Source: Sphingomonadales bacterium | Lineage (GTDB): Bacteria > Pseudomonadota > Alphaproteobacteria > Sphingomonadales > Sphingomonadaceae | Assembly (NCBI GenBank): GCA_027486895.1 | Contig: JAIXOE010000037.1 | Location: 62,001-126,000 of the forward strand | Direction: 5' to 3' | DNA: 64,000 nucleotides | Part shown: in pieces, positions 41,282 to 49,156 of the stretch | How positions within the stretch are numbered: the stretch's first letter is position 1 | How the letters are laid out: each line of letters opens with the position of its first letter | Program-made: the position numbers and the translations under genes | The notes under the pieces: generated by a model | Told to the model about the DNA's origin: nothing | What the model saw: the letters and a program-made list of their open reading frames with translations, nothing else | Database searches by the model: none

Positions 41282-41564
41282 GTTGAGGGTCAAAATGTTC
41301 GATATCCCCGCCACAATGGCTGTGTACCATCAATGCGGAGCGTGGCAAATAACGCACTAATTTTCGGCTATTGTTTGCCTTGACGACCGCTAAATTTGCT
41401 ACCATTGGGCTAGCCAACGACAAAGCCATTTTCTCCCCATGAAATAGTGGCATTTGAAGGGCTGAAAGCAGTCGCAAACGACGTTTTGAGCGTCCTGTGT
41501 CTTAAACGGAAATATGCCCAATTGGGCAGCCCGCTTTTCGGGTAGCAATGTATGGAGTTTGAAA

Positions 41565-42851
41565 ATGGCCGAGAATAACGCAACTCTTACCGTTGGCGAA
41601 ACCAGCTTTGATTTGCCGATCATGAAGGGTTCGGAAGGACCCGACGTTATCGATATCCGTAAATTATATGCAGTGTCGGATCATTTCACCTTTGATCCTG
41701 GCTTCACGTCAACCGCGAGCTGCGAATCTGCCCTGACCTTCATCGATGGTGACGAGGGCATCCTTTTGCACCGGGGCTATTCCATCGAAGAACTTTCCGA
41801 ACAGTCGAGCTTCATGGAAGTGTCTTATCTGTTGTTGAATGGCGAATTGCCAACGAAGGCGCAGCTTGACCAGTTCAGCCATACCATTTCGCGTCACACC
41901 ATGCTGCACGAGCAGTTAGCGACATTCTACCGCGGCTTCCGCCGTGATGCACATCCAATGGCGATTATGTGCGGTGTAGTTGGCGCGCTTTCAGCATTTT
42001 ATCATGACTCCACTGACATCAGCGATCCGACGCACCGCATGATTTCGAGCCATCGTTTGATTGCCAAAATGCCAACAATCGCCGCAATGGCGTATAAATA
42101 TTCGGTCGGTCAGCCATTTGTCTATCCAGACAATAGCCTGTCATACACCGGCAACTTCCTGCGGATGACCTTTGGCGTTCCCGCTGAAGAATATGTTGTG
42201 AACCCAGTCATCGAACGCGCGATGGACCGGATATTCATCCTCCACGCCGACCATGAACAAAACGCCTCGACATCGACGGTGCGTCTTGCCGGATCATCGG
42301 GTGCAAATCCGTTTGCATGTATTGCGGCGGGCATTGCATGCCTCTGGGGCCCGGCACATGGCGGCGCTAACGAAGCTGCACTTAACATGCTGCGCGAAAT
42401 CGGCACCCCAGACCGTATTCCGCATTACATTGAGCGCGCAAAGGACAAGAATGATCCATTCCGCCTGATGGGCTTTGGACATCGTGTTTATAAAAACTAC
42501 GATCCGCGCGCTTCGGTCATGCAAAAGACGGTACGTGAGGTTCTGACCGAACTGAACATTACTGACCCAATCTTTGATGTTGCGATGCAGCTTGAAGAAA
42601 TGGCGCTAAATGATCCATATTTCATCGAAAAGAAGCTGTTCCCGAACGTAGATTTCTACTCAGGCATCATTTTGTCGGCGATTGGTTTCCCGACTGAAAT
42701 GTTCACAGTGTTGTTTGCACTTTCGCGCACCGTGGGTTGGGTTGCGCAGTGGAATGAAATGATTTCCGATCCGGCTCAAAAAATCGGTCGCCCGCGCCAG
42801 TTGTACACTGGGCCAAACCACCGCCCATATCCGGGCCTCGCCCAGCGTTAA
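41565..42851 (+). CDS. gltA: Citrate synthase
   Basis: [73 protein letters not shown]. Confidence 0.98.
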
Positions 42852-44198
42852 TTATTGTGGAAGGCGGAGCGTGAATTTAGCGCCTCCGCCTTTTGCATCC
42901 TCAACGGTTAAATCGCCGCCCATCGCACGTGCAAGACGTCGTGATATGTAAAGACCTAGGCCGCTTCCGCCATCGCCGGTGCGCCCCAGGCGCTCGAATT
43001 TCGCAAAGATGCGTTCGTGGTTATCCATGCCAACGCCCGAACCTTGGTCCGCCACAGATATACGCGCACATCCATCCCCGGCGCCGACTTCAACCCGTAT
43101 TTCGGTTCCGTCGGGCGAATATCGTATTGCATTGGTAATCAGGTTTAACATTACTTGCAGCACGCGCCTGAATTCGGCGTTGGCCGGGACGTGCGTTTGG
43201 TCATCAGGCACTACGAGGGTAATGCTGTGATCTGCGGCCTTTAACGCGAGCAAACCAGCAGCACGCCGCGCAACATCGCCTAACTCTATCTCGTCCTTTG
43301 CCGTCGCAAAGCCCGGTCGCTCGACAGCCTCTAAATCGCCAAGATCCTCCACCAGCGCCGTCAGGTGCCGCGCCGCATTGGCGATATCGCGTGCATATGA
43401 CGCATAGTTTTCACGGATCGGGCCTAACAATTCGCTCCCAATCGTTTCTGCATTGGCAATGATACGGTTCAACGGCTGCCGGAGGACCGGAGCAAGCTGA
43501 TTCCCAAAAAGCGCACCCGGCGTTGATTGGTCGCCGCCTAGGCCGGTCGGACCAACAATTTTCTCATTCTGCGCAAAAAACAGTGTGTAGCCAGAAACCT
43601 CGCCGTCGGTATTGCGTTCCGCCTGCCCCCACACCAACATGTTGCCATCGTTGAGCGTCGTAACGTTCCGCCGGCTGATCGGAAGGAATTTTTCGACATT
43701 TTGGAATTGCGCAAATTGCTCCGTCCCAAAAAACCTTTCGAGTATAATTTTGGCCGAAGAACCGAAATCTGCGGGCCTTACGATGTCTTCGACGGGTCCG
43801 CGGGCATCAACTAGCCGCAAGGCTCTGTCGAATCCAAGCCTGACTGGTTCTTGACCTTGATCAGGCCAGACAGCCTGCAATTTTGAACTGGCAGCAACAT
43901 TTTCAATTTTGCGCCAACTCAAGATGGAGAGTTTAACTTCATTGTCAGAAGGCTCGGCTTCCACCCACAATTCCAGATTATCCGCACCATCCGAAACTCG
44001 AACAGCGCGTGCTAGCCGCATGCGAAGACTTACCACCATCTGTGTGAGGCTCAGCAAAGCTGGACAAGCAACTATACCGCCAAGCTCGCCCCCTGCCCTC
44101 AAATGAAGCTGCTCCAAGGCGTCGTCCGCACGCAACAACATGCCCTCGTGCGAAACCTCGCCTGTGACGGCGCGTGTTAAAGGCGCTGTACCGTTCAT
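42852..44198 (-). CDS. Histidine-kinase-like protein lacking the H-box histidine
   Basis: HATPase motifs NLITNAIRYSPDG, VADQGSGVGMD, GSGLGLYISRRLA intact; H-box reads LAPVLRQPLNRIIANAE (Pro at the His position); ATGA overlap with upstream gene. Confidence 0.85.
   Translation of the reverse strand: MNGTAPLTRAVTGEVSHEGMLLRADDALEQLHLRAGGELGGIVACPALLSLTQMVVSLRMRLARAVRVSDGADNLELWVEAEPSDNEVKLSILSWRKIENVAASSKLQAVWPDQGQEPVRLGFDRALRLVDARGPVEDIVRPADFGSSAKIILERFFGTEQFAQFQNVEKFLPISRRNVTTLNDGNMLVWGQAERNTDGEVSGYTLFFAQNEKIVGPTGLGGDQSTPGALFGNQLAPVLRQPLNRIIANAETIGSELLGPIRENYASYARDIANAARHLTALVEDLGDLEAVERPGFATAKDEIELGDVARRAAGLLALKAADHSITLVVPDDQTHVPANAEFRRVLQVMLNLITNAIRYSPDGTEIRVEVGAGDGCARISVADQGSGVGMDNHERIFAKFERLGRTGDGGSGLGLYISRRLARAMGGDLTVEDAKGGGAKFTLRLPQ
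42861..42894 (+). terminator. gltA terminator lying inside the 3' end of the convergent kinase gene
   Basis: AAGGCGGAG(CG)...(CG)C-CTCCGCCTT perfect 9-bp stem followed by TTTT. Confidence 0.7.
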
Positions 44199-45145
44199 GT
44201 TTTGCAGAAGCTTAGAAACGCCAACCGCGCGGCAGACCATTTGTTGAGCTGTTCGCGTGCCATTTCACGAATGATATGTACGTATTCAGACTCAAACAGC
44301 ACAGCTTCGCGTGGCAAGAGGATTTGCCCCCTCAAAGCAATCATGGTCTGCAGAGCTTCATCCTTGGGAACACCGTCGGCTGCCAGCAAAACCATCATCG
44401 GAAATGCAGATTCAAAATCTATCATCCGCAGAATATGATCATGTCCGATATTCAGGTCAGCGCTGAGTTGAGCCACGAAAAGATGAATCCCGGCATAATG
44501 CGGGTTCGACAGCGAAACTTTGGCCTCGTTACCGATAAAATGCGCAATTTTTCGTGCCGATGCCGGAGCTGTGTGCGCTTCGTCATAGCTTGAAATCAGC
44601 AAACGCGCTTTATTGATCACCTCATCAGACCGGCTGCCCGACAAGACCTCAAGCGCGGCAACAATCCGCCAGCAAACCTTGTATAGAAGTTCAGGCGGCA
44701 GCGTCAGATAAGACCGACCCTGCGCCCGCAATTGCAAGCTATCGGCAGCAAGCAACGCTTGTGCTGCGTGGGCTACGCTTTCGTCTGCATGATCCAGCAA
44801 TTCAACGGCGAATTCAGAGAAGCCACCCCCAAGCCGGGCAATCAGATTGTCTTCAGCGACACGCGCGAGCGCGAAGTCCACTATGTCCGGTTCGCGCAAA
44901 AAACCTGACCGCGCAAGCAATGGTCCAGTAATTGATTCTGGGGTGGCACCCTGCAACCGTGCCTCGATATCGCGCACGATTTGCAGCAATTTTACCGAAA
45001 CTGCGCTGATCGTGGCTTCTGACGGTGTATGCACGGCGGACGGAAATATGATTGATGCGACGTCTTGGCACAACGCATCAACATCGCGCGCATGAAACGA
45101 CGCGATTGAAAGCAAATCATCTTGAGGGCCGAGCAAACCGTCCAA
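44195..45145 (-). CDS. DUF2336-like protein
   Basis: All-helical 316 aa (LLARSGFLREPDIVDFALARV..., LVAQLSADLNIGHDHILRMIDFES); position next to kinase; family recalled, not searched. Confidence 0.65.
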   Translation of the reverse strand: MDGLLGPQDDLLSIASFHARDVDALCQDVASIIFPSAVHTPSEATISAVSVKLLQIVRDIEARLQGATPESITGPLLARSGFLREPDIVDFALARVAEDNLIARLGGGFSEFAVELLDHADESVAHAAQALLAADSLQLRAQGRSYLTLPPELLYKVCWRIVAALEVLSGSRSDEVINKARLLISSYDEAHTAPASARKIAHFIGNEAKVSLSNPHYAGIHLFVAQLSADLNIGHDHILRMIDFESAFPMMVLLAADGVPKDEALQTMIALRGQILLPREAVLFESEYVHIIREMAREQLNKWSAARLAFLSFCKT

Positions 45146-45201
45146 AGCCTATCCAGTGCTGTTCATGGCGGCCGTTATAGGTTTTTTCGGTTAACGCCGC
45201 T

Positions 45202-46428
45202 TTAAGCCTGATCGGCCTTTTTATCTGGGCCGCTATCGTAGCATGCAAACATAAACACGCTTAATTGTGCAACCATAATCCATTGCAAAGCATAAGTGAA
45301 ACCGAGCACGGCAGTGCCAACAATGGCTAAAATGGACAGCATTGCAGCCGACCGGAGAAGCCCATAAGCCCAATGGGGCAAAGAAACGCGCATGCTGATA
45401 AACGCAATGGAGGCCACAGCAAAGGCCGCAAAGAGGCCGTCGCTGGTGTAAGAGGTGTCCATATAGGCGGCGCCAAACATCGCGATTACGAGCAGCACCA
45501 ACGTCACAGTAGTCAGGCTAGGGATTTTCCCTCGGCCATTCGGATCGTCTGTTGCTGCAAGGCGCAGGGAATTGGCGACGACAGCTGCAAATGCCGCGCC
45601 AGTTGCTGCCAGGGCATAGCCCGACACGCCGAGCGCGATTGCGCCAAATGCAAAAATCGGACCCGCAAATTTGACGAGCTTCAGTGCGATCGGACTTTGC
45701 CAGATGAAGGGAACCAACTTCGCGGATGCCGGCCCCAAAACCCGTGCTTCAACCATACCAGGCTGACTTGCGACCCGTCTGCGCAATATCTGTTTGTTAA
45801 GCTGGACAAAATCCTGCGGGCCTTGGACAATATTCAGGGTTCCGTTGTTGACATGCTGTTGCGACAAAAGTCTCAACGGCACATTTGCGAGGATTGCCTG
45901 CCGCAAAAGGGAGGAAATGATGCTCCAGTCTTCGGGCAGATCTTTAAGCATCGATATCGTGCTTGCACTGACGACCGAGATACCCGCCCAGCGGGTATTC
46001 AAATCGATCCGTTCGAAAAGGCTATTTTCATCACGCCCGTCAAGCGTAGCTACGAAGTTATCCGCCGATTTCGCAAGCGTCTCAACAAAGTCGGGTTGAA
46101 CATATAGCTGCCCAGACTGAACCCAAACGCGATCATCAAGCTTTAAATAGCGCTGGATGTCCGCACCCGTACGCACGAAATCTACGAGGATATCTTGCTG
46201 GCGGCATTGGTCAGCCAAGGCCAGCATTGCCCCATCGACATTTTCGACTTCAACGAGAAACCGTGAAATGCCAGCACGACACAGTGTTTTAATCTGATAC
46301 GCGACAAGCGATCCCCCCGCCAACTCGGTATTCCCCCTGTCGGTGGGCGCGGACGACGTTGATACATCGCCACCTGTGACGGAGAGCAGAGCAACAGACG
46401 GTTTTTCGGGAAAGCGGACGGACACCAT
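45202..46428 (-). CDS. NTase-like plus CDP-alcohol-phosphotransferase-like membrane protein, apparently degenerate
   Basis: N-terminal Rossmann/NTase-like pattern (LVAYQIKTLCRAGISRFLVEV), C-terminal TM region; catalytic motifs not recognisable. Confidence 0.5.
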   Translation of the reverse strand: MVSVRFPEKPSVALLSVTGGDVSTSSAPTDRGNTELAGGSLVAYQIKTLCRAGISRFLVEVENVDGAMLALADQCRQQDILVDFVRTGADIQRYLKLDDRVWVQSGQLYVQPDFVETLAKSADNFVATLDGRDENSLFERIDLNTRWAGISVVSASTISMLKDLPEDWSIISSLLRQAILANVPLRLLSQQHVNNGTLNIVQGPQDFVQLNKQILRRRVASQPGMVEARVLGPASAKLVPFIWQSPIALKLVKFAGPIFAFGAIALGVSGYALAATGAAFAAVVANSLRLAATDDPNGRGKIPSLTTVTLVLLVIAMFGAAYMDTSYTSDGLFAAFAVASIAFISMRVSLPHWAYGLLRSAAMLSILAIVGTAVLGFTYALQWIMVAQLSVFMFACYDSGPDKKADQA

Positions 46429-46488
46429 AGGCCCGATATGAAGGTTAGCTGTCTTTTGCCAATAAAAATCTACGAAACGACTCAATCA

Positions 46489-46797
46489 TTAAACAATGAA
46501 ATGTTCAATTTCGGATATCGCCTTGTTGAGTTTGCGAATGACAACTGGGTCACCGGGCGCACCTTCGCCTGCTTCGTCAGCCAAAGTCATGATGTGTATC
46601 GCGCCAAAGCTGGCGGCCAAACCTTTTAAACGCCAGCTGGAATATTGCCAATTTGCATCGCAACGCGACCGCGATAACAGGCTGATTTGCCGCTTCGCGC
46701 TTTCAACGAAGGACAAACGCAGTTCCGCCATGAGGGATGCATCATCCCCGACTGCAGCCTTTAACGCTGTGTCAAATTGGCCATAATCCATCGACAT
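46489..46797 (-). CDS. Hpt-domain-like protein lacking the phosphoacceptor His
   Basis: WRLKGLAASFGAIHIMTLADEAGEGA aligns with the Hpt HxLKGxAxxxGA core, with Trp in place of His. Confidence 0.7.
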   Translation of the reverse strand: MSMDYGQFDTALKAAVGDDASLMAELRLSFVESAKRQISLLSRSRCDANWQYSSWRLKGLAASFGAIHIMTLADEAGEGAPGDPVVIRKLNKAISEIEHFIV

Positions 46798-46867
46798 TCC
46801 ACGGGTTTACAACTGATAGTGTTAAGTTTGCGTTTCTCTCTCGCAATAATATGGTAAATACGAAATT

Positions 46868-49156
46868 ATGACCACACGTTCAAAAATCGTCGGCTTGACG
46901 CAGCATATTTCGGATCAATCCACGCACGACCATGTCGTAGAGGAAACGAACGCGACTACGGACATGCTTCCGGACGATGTATATTCAGCAACTTACGATG
47001 ATGCGTATGAACTTCAGGAGCCGCGGCGCAGTGTTTTGGCATTTGTGGTGCCGACGTTGCTTCTTGTCGCATTTGTCGGCTGGACTGCATTTTTTGCAAT
47101 GACCTATTGGCCCGAGGCGCAAACTGGCCTCACCAATAATCGCGTTGTTGAACTTGTCGCTAATTGGGCCATCCCTGCCCTATTGATCGCAGTAGCTTGG
47201 TTGCTGGTGATGCGTAGCAGCAGCCGTGAAGCTACCCGATTCGGCAATGTAGCTGCTTTGTTGCGTAACGAAAGCGATGCGCTGAGTCAGCGGATGCGCA
47301 CGGTAAACGAAGAGATCTCGTTGGCACGCGAGTTTTTGTCGCAAAACGCGCGTGATTTGGAGTCGCTTGGGCGGCAGTCCTCTCAGAAATTGATGGATTC
47401 GGCGCAGGTGCTCACGGCAGCGCTCGCCGATAGCGACGAAAAGGCAAAAACGCTTGAGGCGGTAAGCCAATCCGCAAACACCAATTTGGAGCAGCTTCGC
47501 AAGCATCTGCCTGTCGTCACGAGCGCAGCGAAGGACGTGACGAACCAGATTGGCAGTGCTGGAAATAACGCGCAAATCCAGATCAAGGCGCTGATAGCCA
47601 CTCTCGAGCGCGTCAGCGATGCGGGGAAATCCGTGCGCGACTATATCGATGATGTTGAAGTGCGCGCTGATGATTTAGCGGTTAAATTAGAACAGTCGCT
47701 AAGCAGCAGTGCAAAGCTGCTCGACGTACGAAGTGCTGAAGCGCTTGACCGAAGCGCCGAAATGGCGACTTTGATGGACAGCGCATCGCAAGCGATATCG
47801 AGCGGCATCGCGCAAGCATCGGGCGATATAGATTCGATCCTCACTGACAGTCAGGAACATATTCAGTCGAGCCTAGTAGAATTGCGGCAGGCACTTGGTG
47901 AGGTCGGCAGCCAGACCGAACAGGAAGAGGCGCGCATCCACGACATGATTGCGACAATAAGCACGCACATTCGCACCAGCGCAGACCAAATTTCTGAGGT
48001 TGATCGGGTAGCAACCGAACAAACATCCAAACTTGCCTTTGCGGTTTCCGCGCTGGGAGAGAGCACGCGGTCAGTCGGCTCCGCGCTGACAGATAATCAG
48101 GCGGTCACCGAACAACTTATTGGACAATCCGACAGGCTGTTGGAATCGCTTGGCACGGCAAACCACGAAATCAGCAAGACCATCCCTGCAGCTATGGACG
48201 TACTCAGCGTTCAGTTGTCCGATGGTGTCGCGCAGATCAAATCAGCTTTGTCGAGTGCGCAATCCCTCGAGGAACTGAGCGACAACATGCTTGAGAAGCT
48301 AAACGGGCTTGAGCAGCTTATTGCCACCCAGCGCGACTCTGTGAGCGTGCTCATGACGCAAAGCGATGCGCATTTTTCAGCACGTCATGAGCAAGTCGAC
48401 GCGCTTGGTTCATCGCTTCGACAGACACAATCGCTGCTTGAGGAAATGTCGGATGAGGCAAATGACCGGCTCGTAACCTCGTTGCTTCGGGTGCGCGAAT
48501 CCACACGTGCAGCCGCGGAGAGCAGCCGGAAGATATTGGATGATGAACTTGCACATATTGCGGACCAATTAACTGAACAAAACCGGACGGCGCTTGCAAA
48601 CGCATTGGATGCGCAAGTTGCTTCGATGAATTCGGCGGTCCAGGAAGCGATTGAACGCAATGTAGAGCTGTCCGAAGCTGCGTCAGGCCTAGTCGTCAAG
48701 CAATTGGCCGAACTGGATGAAATGACCAGCAGCCTCGAAAGCCGCATTGCCGATAGCAAAAACAGCTTTGAATCAGTTCATGATGACAGCTTCGCCCGCC
48801 GGATGGTGCTGTTAACGGAATCGCTGAATTCGACGGCAATCGATGTCGCTAAAATATTGTCGAACGACATTACCGACACGGCATGGGCATCTTATCTCAA
48901 GGGCGACAGGGGCGTGTTTACCCGCCGTGCGGTTCGGCTATTGGATGCTGGAGAGGCAAAGATCATCGCCAATCATTATGGCGAGGACAGCGAATTCCGC
49001 GAGCATGTGAACCGTTACGTACACGACTTTGAATCCATCATGCGCCTGTTGCTGAGCACACGCGATGGCAACGCCATTGGTGTAACTCTCCTGTCGTCCG
49101 ATATTGGTAAGCTATATGTTGCGCTTGCCCAAGCTATCGAACGACTGCGGAATTAA
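46868..49156 (+). CDS. Two-TM long coiled-coil protein (TipN-like architecture)
   Basis: TM segments near residues 55-80 and 95-115, then ~600 aa of Ser/Ala/Gln/Leu-rich coiled-coil-type sequence. Confidence 0.7.
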   Translation: MTTRSKIVGLTQHISDQSTHDHVVEETNATTDMLPDDVYSATYDDAYELQEPRRSVLAFVVPTLLLVAFVGWTAFFAMTYWPEAQTGLTNNRVVELVANWAIPALLIAVAWLLVMRSSSREATRFGNVAALLRNESDALSQRMRTVNEEISLAREFLSQNARDLESLGRQSSQKLMDSAQVLTAALADSDEKAKTLEAVSQSANTNLEQLRKHLPVVTSAAKDVTNQIGSAGNNAQIQIKALIATLERVSDAGKSVRDYIDDVEVRADDLAVKLEQSLSSSAKLLDVRSAEALDRSAEMATLMDSASQAISSGIAQASGDIDSILTDSQEHIQSSLVELRQALGEVGSQTEQEEARIHDMIATISTHIRTSADQISEVDRVATEQTSKLAFAVSALGESTRSVGSALTDNQAVTEQLIGQSDRLLESLGTANHEISKTIPAAMDVLSVQLSDGVAQIKSALSSAQSLEELSDNMLEKLNGLEQLIATQRDSVSVLMTQSDAHFSARHEQVDALGSSLRQTQSLLEEMSDEANDRLVTSLLRVRESTRAAAESSRKILDDELAHIADQLTEQNRTALANALDAQVASMNSAVQEAIERNVELSEAASGLVVKQLAELDEMTSSLESRIADSKNSFESVHDDSFARRMVLLTESLNSTAIDVAKILSNDITDTAWASYLKGDRGVFTRRAVRLLDAGEAKIIANHYGEDSEFREHVNRYVHDFESIMRLLLSTRDGNAIGVTLLSSDIGKLYVALAQAIERLRN

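Follow-up and report, generated by a model that had tools for sequence, protein, structure and literature searches.

A conserved operon in a Sphingorhabdus genome (Sphingomonadaceae) encodes a histidine kinase that has kept its ATP-binding site and lost its phosphoacceptor histidine, and the same genome encodes an unlinked paralogue that has kept the histidine and lost key ATP-binding residues; the two are complementary, ATP-only and His-only, proteins of one genome. The operon lies in the window, that is, the whole stretch of 64,000 nucleotides analysed here (contig JAIXOE010000037.1, positions 62,001 to 126,000), and comprises minus-strand genes for the kinase, a DUF2336-family protein, a membrane protein with similarity to nucleotidyltransferase (NTase)/CDP-alcohol-phosphotransferase enzymes, and a histidine phosphotransfer (Hpt)-like protein. 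A first-pass annotation had described these four genes as facing a divergent gene for a coiled-coil protein across about 70 bp; all five open reading frames (ORFs) were confirmed at their coordinates, with the Hpt gene separated from the coiled-coil gene by 70 bp, and the His-bearing paralogue is an addition to what that annotation had observed. Based on sequence comparisons, we propose a Sphingomonadaceae-specific remodelling in which the ATP-half encoded in the operon and the unlinked His-half may form a two-part kinase, with the pseudo-Hpt and a dead enzyme as adaptors to a scaffold, and we put the chance that this reading is right at slightly under one half.

The kinase ORF was listed at 42852..44240 (minus strand), and homologues begin at the ATG at 44198, which overlaps the stop codon of the DUF2336 gene as ATGA, a sign of translational coupling; 44198 is probably the true start. 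The protein has a PAS-like N-terminus, a HisKA fold and an intact HATPase_c domain (Pfam, E 2.4e-27), with HisKA matched only below the cut-off. The initial description of a Pro at the phospho-His site beside intact ATP-binding motifs held up, as Pro251 (codon at 43488..43490, minus strand) lines up with the SHELRTP His of kinases with known structures. Among 100 homologues, this position is filled by Pro, Arg, Ser, Asn, Ala, Gly and other residues and never by His (0/100), no His was found at or within a few residues of the H-box site, and the H+1 Glu and the usual H-box Thr/Asn are likewise gone. Key residues of the N, G1 and G2 boxes are retained in 97-100 of these 100 kinases, the ATP-site residues Asn, Asn, Asp, Gly and Gly in 99-100, and the N-box Asn in all of them; in the window kinase the corresponding region spans 42954..43133 (minus strand) and includes N-box Asn370, the G1 box (residues 398-402) and the G2 box (residues 425-429). 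Several positions of the DHp domain (Pro256, Gly273, Tyr279, Tyr282, Ala283, Ile286 and His292) are also invariant or nearly so. An identification of the window kinase with DivL itself was ruled out, as the same genome encodes a separate DivL-like kinase (SYEFRTPL, L331) and the site is Pro in the window and Tyr in 0/100 homologues.

The His-half was found by a search with DUF2336-fused PAS proteins. Sphingomonadaceae genomes, including the one that contains the window (G000:C38, locus L352), encode an unlinked DUF2336-like/PAS/HisKA protein, mostly 550-650 amino acids (aa) long, in which the HELRTP-type box is intact and the ATPase domain degenerate; the His and the Glu after it occur in 49/49 of these proteins, and the N-box Asn and the first G1 Gly in 0/49 each. 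In a Pfam search, the L352 protein matched HisKA above the cut-off and gave no HATPase_c match. All 40 genomes with the operon kinase (36 in a first set and four added later) have the His-half, and among five genomes that lack the operon kinase, two (G186 and G139) have no His-half and one (G198) has a 388-aa remnant from which the PAS-DHp segment is deleted. A gene of about 340 aa directly downstream of the His-half is conserved (L352:301-1329, with equivalents in L353-L359); its motifs TVDTEEEFDW, QLHPWVNPP and YRAGRYG give it the look of a polysaccharide deacetylase, and it had no Pfam or NCBIfam match.

Relatives outside the family retain what appears to be the intact form of this system. 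In sister families of the order, the gene immediately after DUF2336 encodes a PAS kinase that has SHELRTP or a similar box and intact ATP motifs, and all 12 of the ancestral-type DUF2336-linked kinases carry both the His and the ATP motifs. The family profile of the operon DUF2336 protein matches kinase-linked DUF2336 proteins at 1e-39 to 1e-50, other DUF2336 genes, which some of these genomes have close to the coiled-coil gene, reach about 20 bits, far below the kinase-linked copies, and the PAS-like domain of the operon kinase matches DUF2336-linked and DUF2336-fused kinases and proteins in sister families. Gene order, the DUF2336 partner and the PAS domain together suggest that the operon kinase is orthologous to the DUF2336-linked kinases. 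One member of the family itself (G054) has a DUF2336 gene and a kinase that retains the His, beside a short NTase-like ORF. With regard to the Hpt, a true Hpt gene, with the His, lies divergently upstream of a TipN/GPR-like gene at 18 of 59 loci outside Sphingomonadaceae, in several families within and outside the order, and these are nearly the only Hpt matches in the non-Sphingomonadaceae stretches examined. Since both the kinase and the Hpt of sister families carry an intact His, the evidence points to an ancient switch of an active system in one family; recent decay of the His sites was ruled out by 188 homologues without the His together with low ratios of non-synonymous to synonymous substitution (dN/dS). 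The DUF2336-PAS paralogue also varies in sister families, where it lacks HisKA entirely at L318, L319, L321, L325 and L326 and retains its His at L317 and L320.

The substitution of His by Trp that had been reported for the Hpt-like protein (46489..46797, minus strand) is borne out: Trp55 (46633-46635) occupies the exact column of the phospho-His in true Hpts, and the family carries a conserved RxRCDxNW motif. In 88 family members this position holds Trp (50) or else Leu, Met, Tyr, Gln, Phe, Ala or Val, and His in 0/88, while all 17 Hpts from other families in the alignment have the His. A Pfam search of the window's Hpt-like, NTase-like and DUF2336-like proteins gave no match for any of the three; homology to Hpt comes instead from 2 of 20 family members that match PF01627 and from the family profile, which can be aligned with true Hpts from the equivalent locus. 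The argument that the loss of the phosphoacceptor from both the kinase and the Hpt of one operon is no coincidence is strengthened by the recurrence of the arrangement at about 110 loci, by the lack of the His in all 100 kinases and 88 Hpts, and by dN/dS values of 0.06-0.20 for the window genes against two close relatives, which indicate purifying selection; no Sphingomonadaceae locus with the operon was found to have either His. The kinase and DUF2336 genes were lost jointly in 5/5 independent losses. The Hpt was lost apart from the kinase in several lineages and is hence not essential to the kinase/DUF2336 pair, which also leaves a strict mutual dependence of Hpt and kinase unsupported.

Both remaining operon genes had been correctly recognised. 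The DUF2336-family helical protein (44195..45145, minus strand) is orthologous to the protein whose gene precedes that of the intact kinase outside Sphingomonadaceae; orthologues in the equivalent position match PF10098 (E 1.2e-16 in G125, 2.1e-9 and 4.1e-9), a fold search with a good model returned no PDB match, and no paper on DUF2336 was found among the open-access papers searched. The membrane protein (45202..46485, minus strand; close homologues begin at a Met equivalent to 46428) had been described as NTase/CDP-alcohol-phosphotransferase-like and devoid of recognisable catalytic motifs. NTP_transf_3 is matched by 8 of 38 homologues, the family profile matches PDB 4mnd (E 4.6e-6), the structure of IPCT/DIPPS, a bifunctional enzyme acting on inositol phosphates, and the Asp residues of the CDP-alcohol-phosphotransferase motif DGxxAR...G...D...D are absent from the family consensus aligned to 4mnd; by sequence, the protein is derived from an IPCT/DIPPS-type enzyme. 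In sister families, 450-aa proteins with an intact DGVDGKLAR motif occur at L282-L284.

The divergent gene (46868..49156, plus strand) encodes a protein with two hydrophobic stretches, near residues 52 and 92, a long coiled coil and a conserved C-terminal domain (48734..49153, plus strand). This domain comprises the last approximately 140 residues. Long coiled-coil proteins of the class, mostly with N-terminal transmembrane (TM) segments, carry it at their very C-terminus; 102 of 289 Alphaproteobacteria genomes encode it, as do 35 of 41 from sister families, and a fold search with a good, all-helical predicted model gave no PDB match. One relative, L144, carries the domain at its end and is 2115 aa long, the published length of GPR. 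Agrobacterium GPR, the growth-pole-ring protein, has 2115 aa, two N-terminal TM domains and a C-terminus that is required for function (PMC8262873), and has been described as similar or analogous to TipN (PMC8546619, PMC13170164). The likeness to TipN that had been suggested for the window protein gains support from this class-wide domain, the two N-terminal TM segments and the 2115-aa relative, and the gene probably encodes a cell-pole scaffold; we infer a polarity or cell-cycle role for the locus. No paper on TipN in Sphingomonas was found among the open-access papers searched. In one other family (L135 and L158), a TipN/GPR-like gene directly follows a same-strand gene for an 870-890 aa kinase with an Hpt-like stretch, and in sister families (L179, L182, L183, L184 and L187) the TipN/GPR-like gene has a second DUF2336 gene beside it in tail-to-tail orientation.

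In the divergent promoter region (46798..46867), a GTTAA element upstream of the coiled-coil start is conserved in position and is weakly CtrA-box-like in relatives: Novosphingobium- and Erythrobacter-like loci have TTAA-N7-TTTA followed about 17 bp on by TGATAT, as would a CtrA box over a -35 region. TTAA-N7-TTAA occurs within one mismatch in 31 of 113 upstream regions, compared to 7.3 expected from shuffled sequences, a count in which related sequences enter repeatedly. Given this redundancy, and with the best CtrA-box match of the window itself lying elsewhere, we regard the CtrA box as only a lead.

Synteny between the operon and the coiled-coil gene, which had been put forward as a check on the module, is strongly conserved in Sphingomonadaceae. 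The arrangement recurs across the family, including Sphingobium, Novosphingobium and Sphingomonas, and the order GltA, kinase, DUF2336, NTase-like, Hpt, coiled coil, DUF1467 and RNase J was found at 40 loci in 22 genera. The locus is split in some genera; one split genome keeps the Hpt gene beside the coiled-coil gene and away from the NTase-like gene. Complete loci make up 78 of the 112 usable ones, and 111/112 have both the NTase-like and the coiled-coil gene, the exception being a 5-kb contig; ORF calls were mechanical, and some absences of DUF2336 or Hpt genes may be annotation artefacts. Among Sphingorhabdus genomes near that of the window (L195-L209 and L039-L041), many have disrupted or missing kinase, DUF2336 and Hpt genes and retain the two for the NTase-like and coiled-coil proteins. 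Next to the kinase gene there is usually a citrate synthase gene (41514-42851 in the window), possibly by coincidence; a cell-cycle control role of Caulobacter citrate synthase is reported by a paper that also treats TipN heavily (PMC7083601).

The two-part kinase that we propose builds on an ancestral state that sister families display: a complete PAS histidine kinase encoded directly after DUF2336 and, elsewhere, a true Hpt gene divergent from a TipN/GPR-like gene. In Sphingomonadaceae these pieces occupy one locus with a dead membrane protein of the IPCT/DIPPS type; kinase and Hpt have each lost the phospho-His, and the kinase has kept its ATP-site residues. The operon kinase may then pair with the DUF2336-PAS-HisKA protein as a heterodimer via their homologous PAS and DHp domains, bind ATP and phosphorylate the His of its paralogue in trans; the pseudo-Hpt and the dead membrane enzyme would be binding parts that tie the complex to the TipN/GPR-like scaffold, which would set it at the cell pole or division site. 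That the family turned a DUF2336-linked kinase into complementary, unlinked half-kinases that can signal only together, with an Hpt that cannot be phosphorylated as the adaptor to the scaffold, is a tentative proposal, to which we assign a rather less than even chance. A number of observations weigh against this reading. The operon kinase is not sister to the DUF2336-linked kinases in a catalytic-domain tree (a sister relation is not rejected, p 0.49). The co-occurrence of the two halves (Fisher p 9e-4) was calculated on the first 41 genomes with kinship ignored, the His-half was lost in only three lineages (G186, G139 and G198), and G134 and G084, where the operon kinase is in recent decay or loss, retain it. 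In addition, phosphotransferase function is known for DHp proteins whose ATPase domain is dead (PMC5898713), and His-only proteins like the paralogue can have it too; polar localisation and TipN orthology of the coiled-coil protein are likewise only what we infer.

The main rival follows the logic of DivL and posits a binding-only pseudokinase module, in which the histidine kinase fold is a conformational switch that reads a phosphorylated response regulator or ATP without phosphate transfer and the pseudo-Hpt is a non-phosphorylatable adaptor. The first-pass annotation had likewise suggested binding rather than phosphotransfer, and its premise, the loss of the His throughout both families, stood and agrees with this rival, as do the (near-)invariant DHp positions and the precedent of DivL, which is Tyr-substituted, acts as neither kinase nor phosphatase and binds DivK~P (PMC4211667). 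However, DivL binds ATP weakly (PMC4211667), whereas the ATP-site residues of the operon kinase are kept in essentially all 100 homologues, and neither the reciprocal His-half nor its co-loss would be expected of a binding-only module. Because this His-only paralogue co-occurs and is co-lost with the ATP-only kinase, binding alone is neither the sole nor clearly the best reading, and a two-part kinase acting in trans is at least as likely; we consider the binding-only module possible but doubtful.

The other rivals appear less probable still. The His-only paralogue could be a phosphotransferase of another relay, like ChpT, Spo0B or PhyT, with the operon kinase regulating it separately and co-occurrence reflecting a shared pathway and not a shared active site. 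This would suit the phosphotransferase activity of known DHp proteins with degenerate ATPase domains (PMC5898713) and the position of the His-half, unlinked and beside a polysaccharide-deacetylase-like gene, but it leaves unexplained why the operon kinase keeps its ATP site and yet has lost its own His, and we judge it unlikely. Conservation of the ATP site could also mean that the operon kinase keeps ATP binding for some other activity (e.g., phosphatase or non-His phosphorylation); this seems improbable given that the H+1 Glu and the usual H-box Thr/Asn are gone as well and that no precedent was found in this family. Finally, the ongoing loss of the kinase, DUF2336 and Hpt genes in the freshwater Sphingorhabdus group near the window might suggest relic genes that decay without function, a reading that the dN/dS values, the 78 complete loci and the retention of the NTase-like and coiled-coil genes in all but one locus largely refute and that we hold to be very improbable.

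If the two halves do act together, the requirement that they assemble would tie signalling to location within the cell, and the locus would be a family-wide natural experiment in the splitting of a complete sensor kinase into complementary halves. The comparisons also tie DUF2336, the true Hpt of sister families and the TipN/GPR-like scaffold into one conserved neighbourhood, which suggests that phosphosignalling beside a scaffold gene is an old alphaproteobacterial trait, and they indicate that 'pseudokinase' labels need checking against reciprocal paralogues of the same genome. Culturable Sphingomonas, Sphingobium and Novosphingobium strains permit direct experiments.

Among known systems, Caulobacter DivL shares with the operon kinase a HisKA fold with a substituted phospho-His and PAS domains, and the DivL structure PDB 4q20 is among the profile matches of the operon kinase; DivL has Tyr at the His site, whereas the operon kinase has Pro, Arg, Ser, Asn and others, together with a conserved ATP site and an operon with DUF2336. 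ChpT, Spo0B and PhyT likewise combine a His-bearing DHp with a degenerate ATPase domain, but the unlinked His-half differs from them by its HELRTP-type HisKA box, its fused DUF2336-like and PAS parts and the co-occurring ATP-only paralogue. Rhodobacter sphaeroides CheA3/CheA4, a CheA-type kinase of chemotaxis, reportedly has its phosphorylatable and ATP-binding domains on two proteins; in Sphingomonadaceae, by contrast, the halves are unlinked HisKA paralogues, each degenerate through the loss of key residues. The NTase-like protein has the NTase plus CDP-alcohol-phosphotransferase layout of IPCT/DIPPS (4mnd), without the catalytic Asp residues in its family consensus. With Caulobacter TipN (882 aa) and Agrobacterium GPR (2115 aa), compared here by their descriptions, the window protein shares two N-terminal TM segments and a long coiled coil, and its C-terminal domain also ends a relative of exactly the length of GPR.

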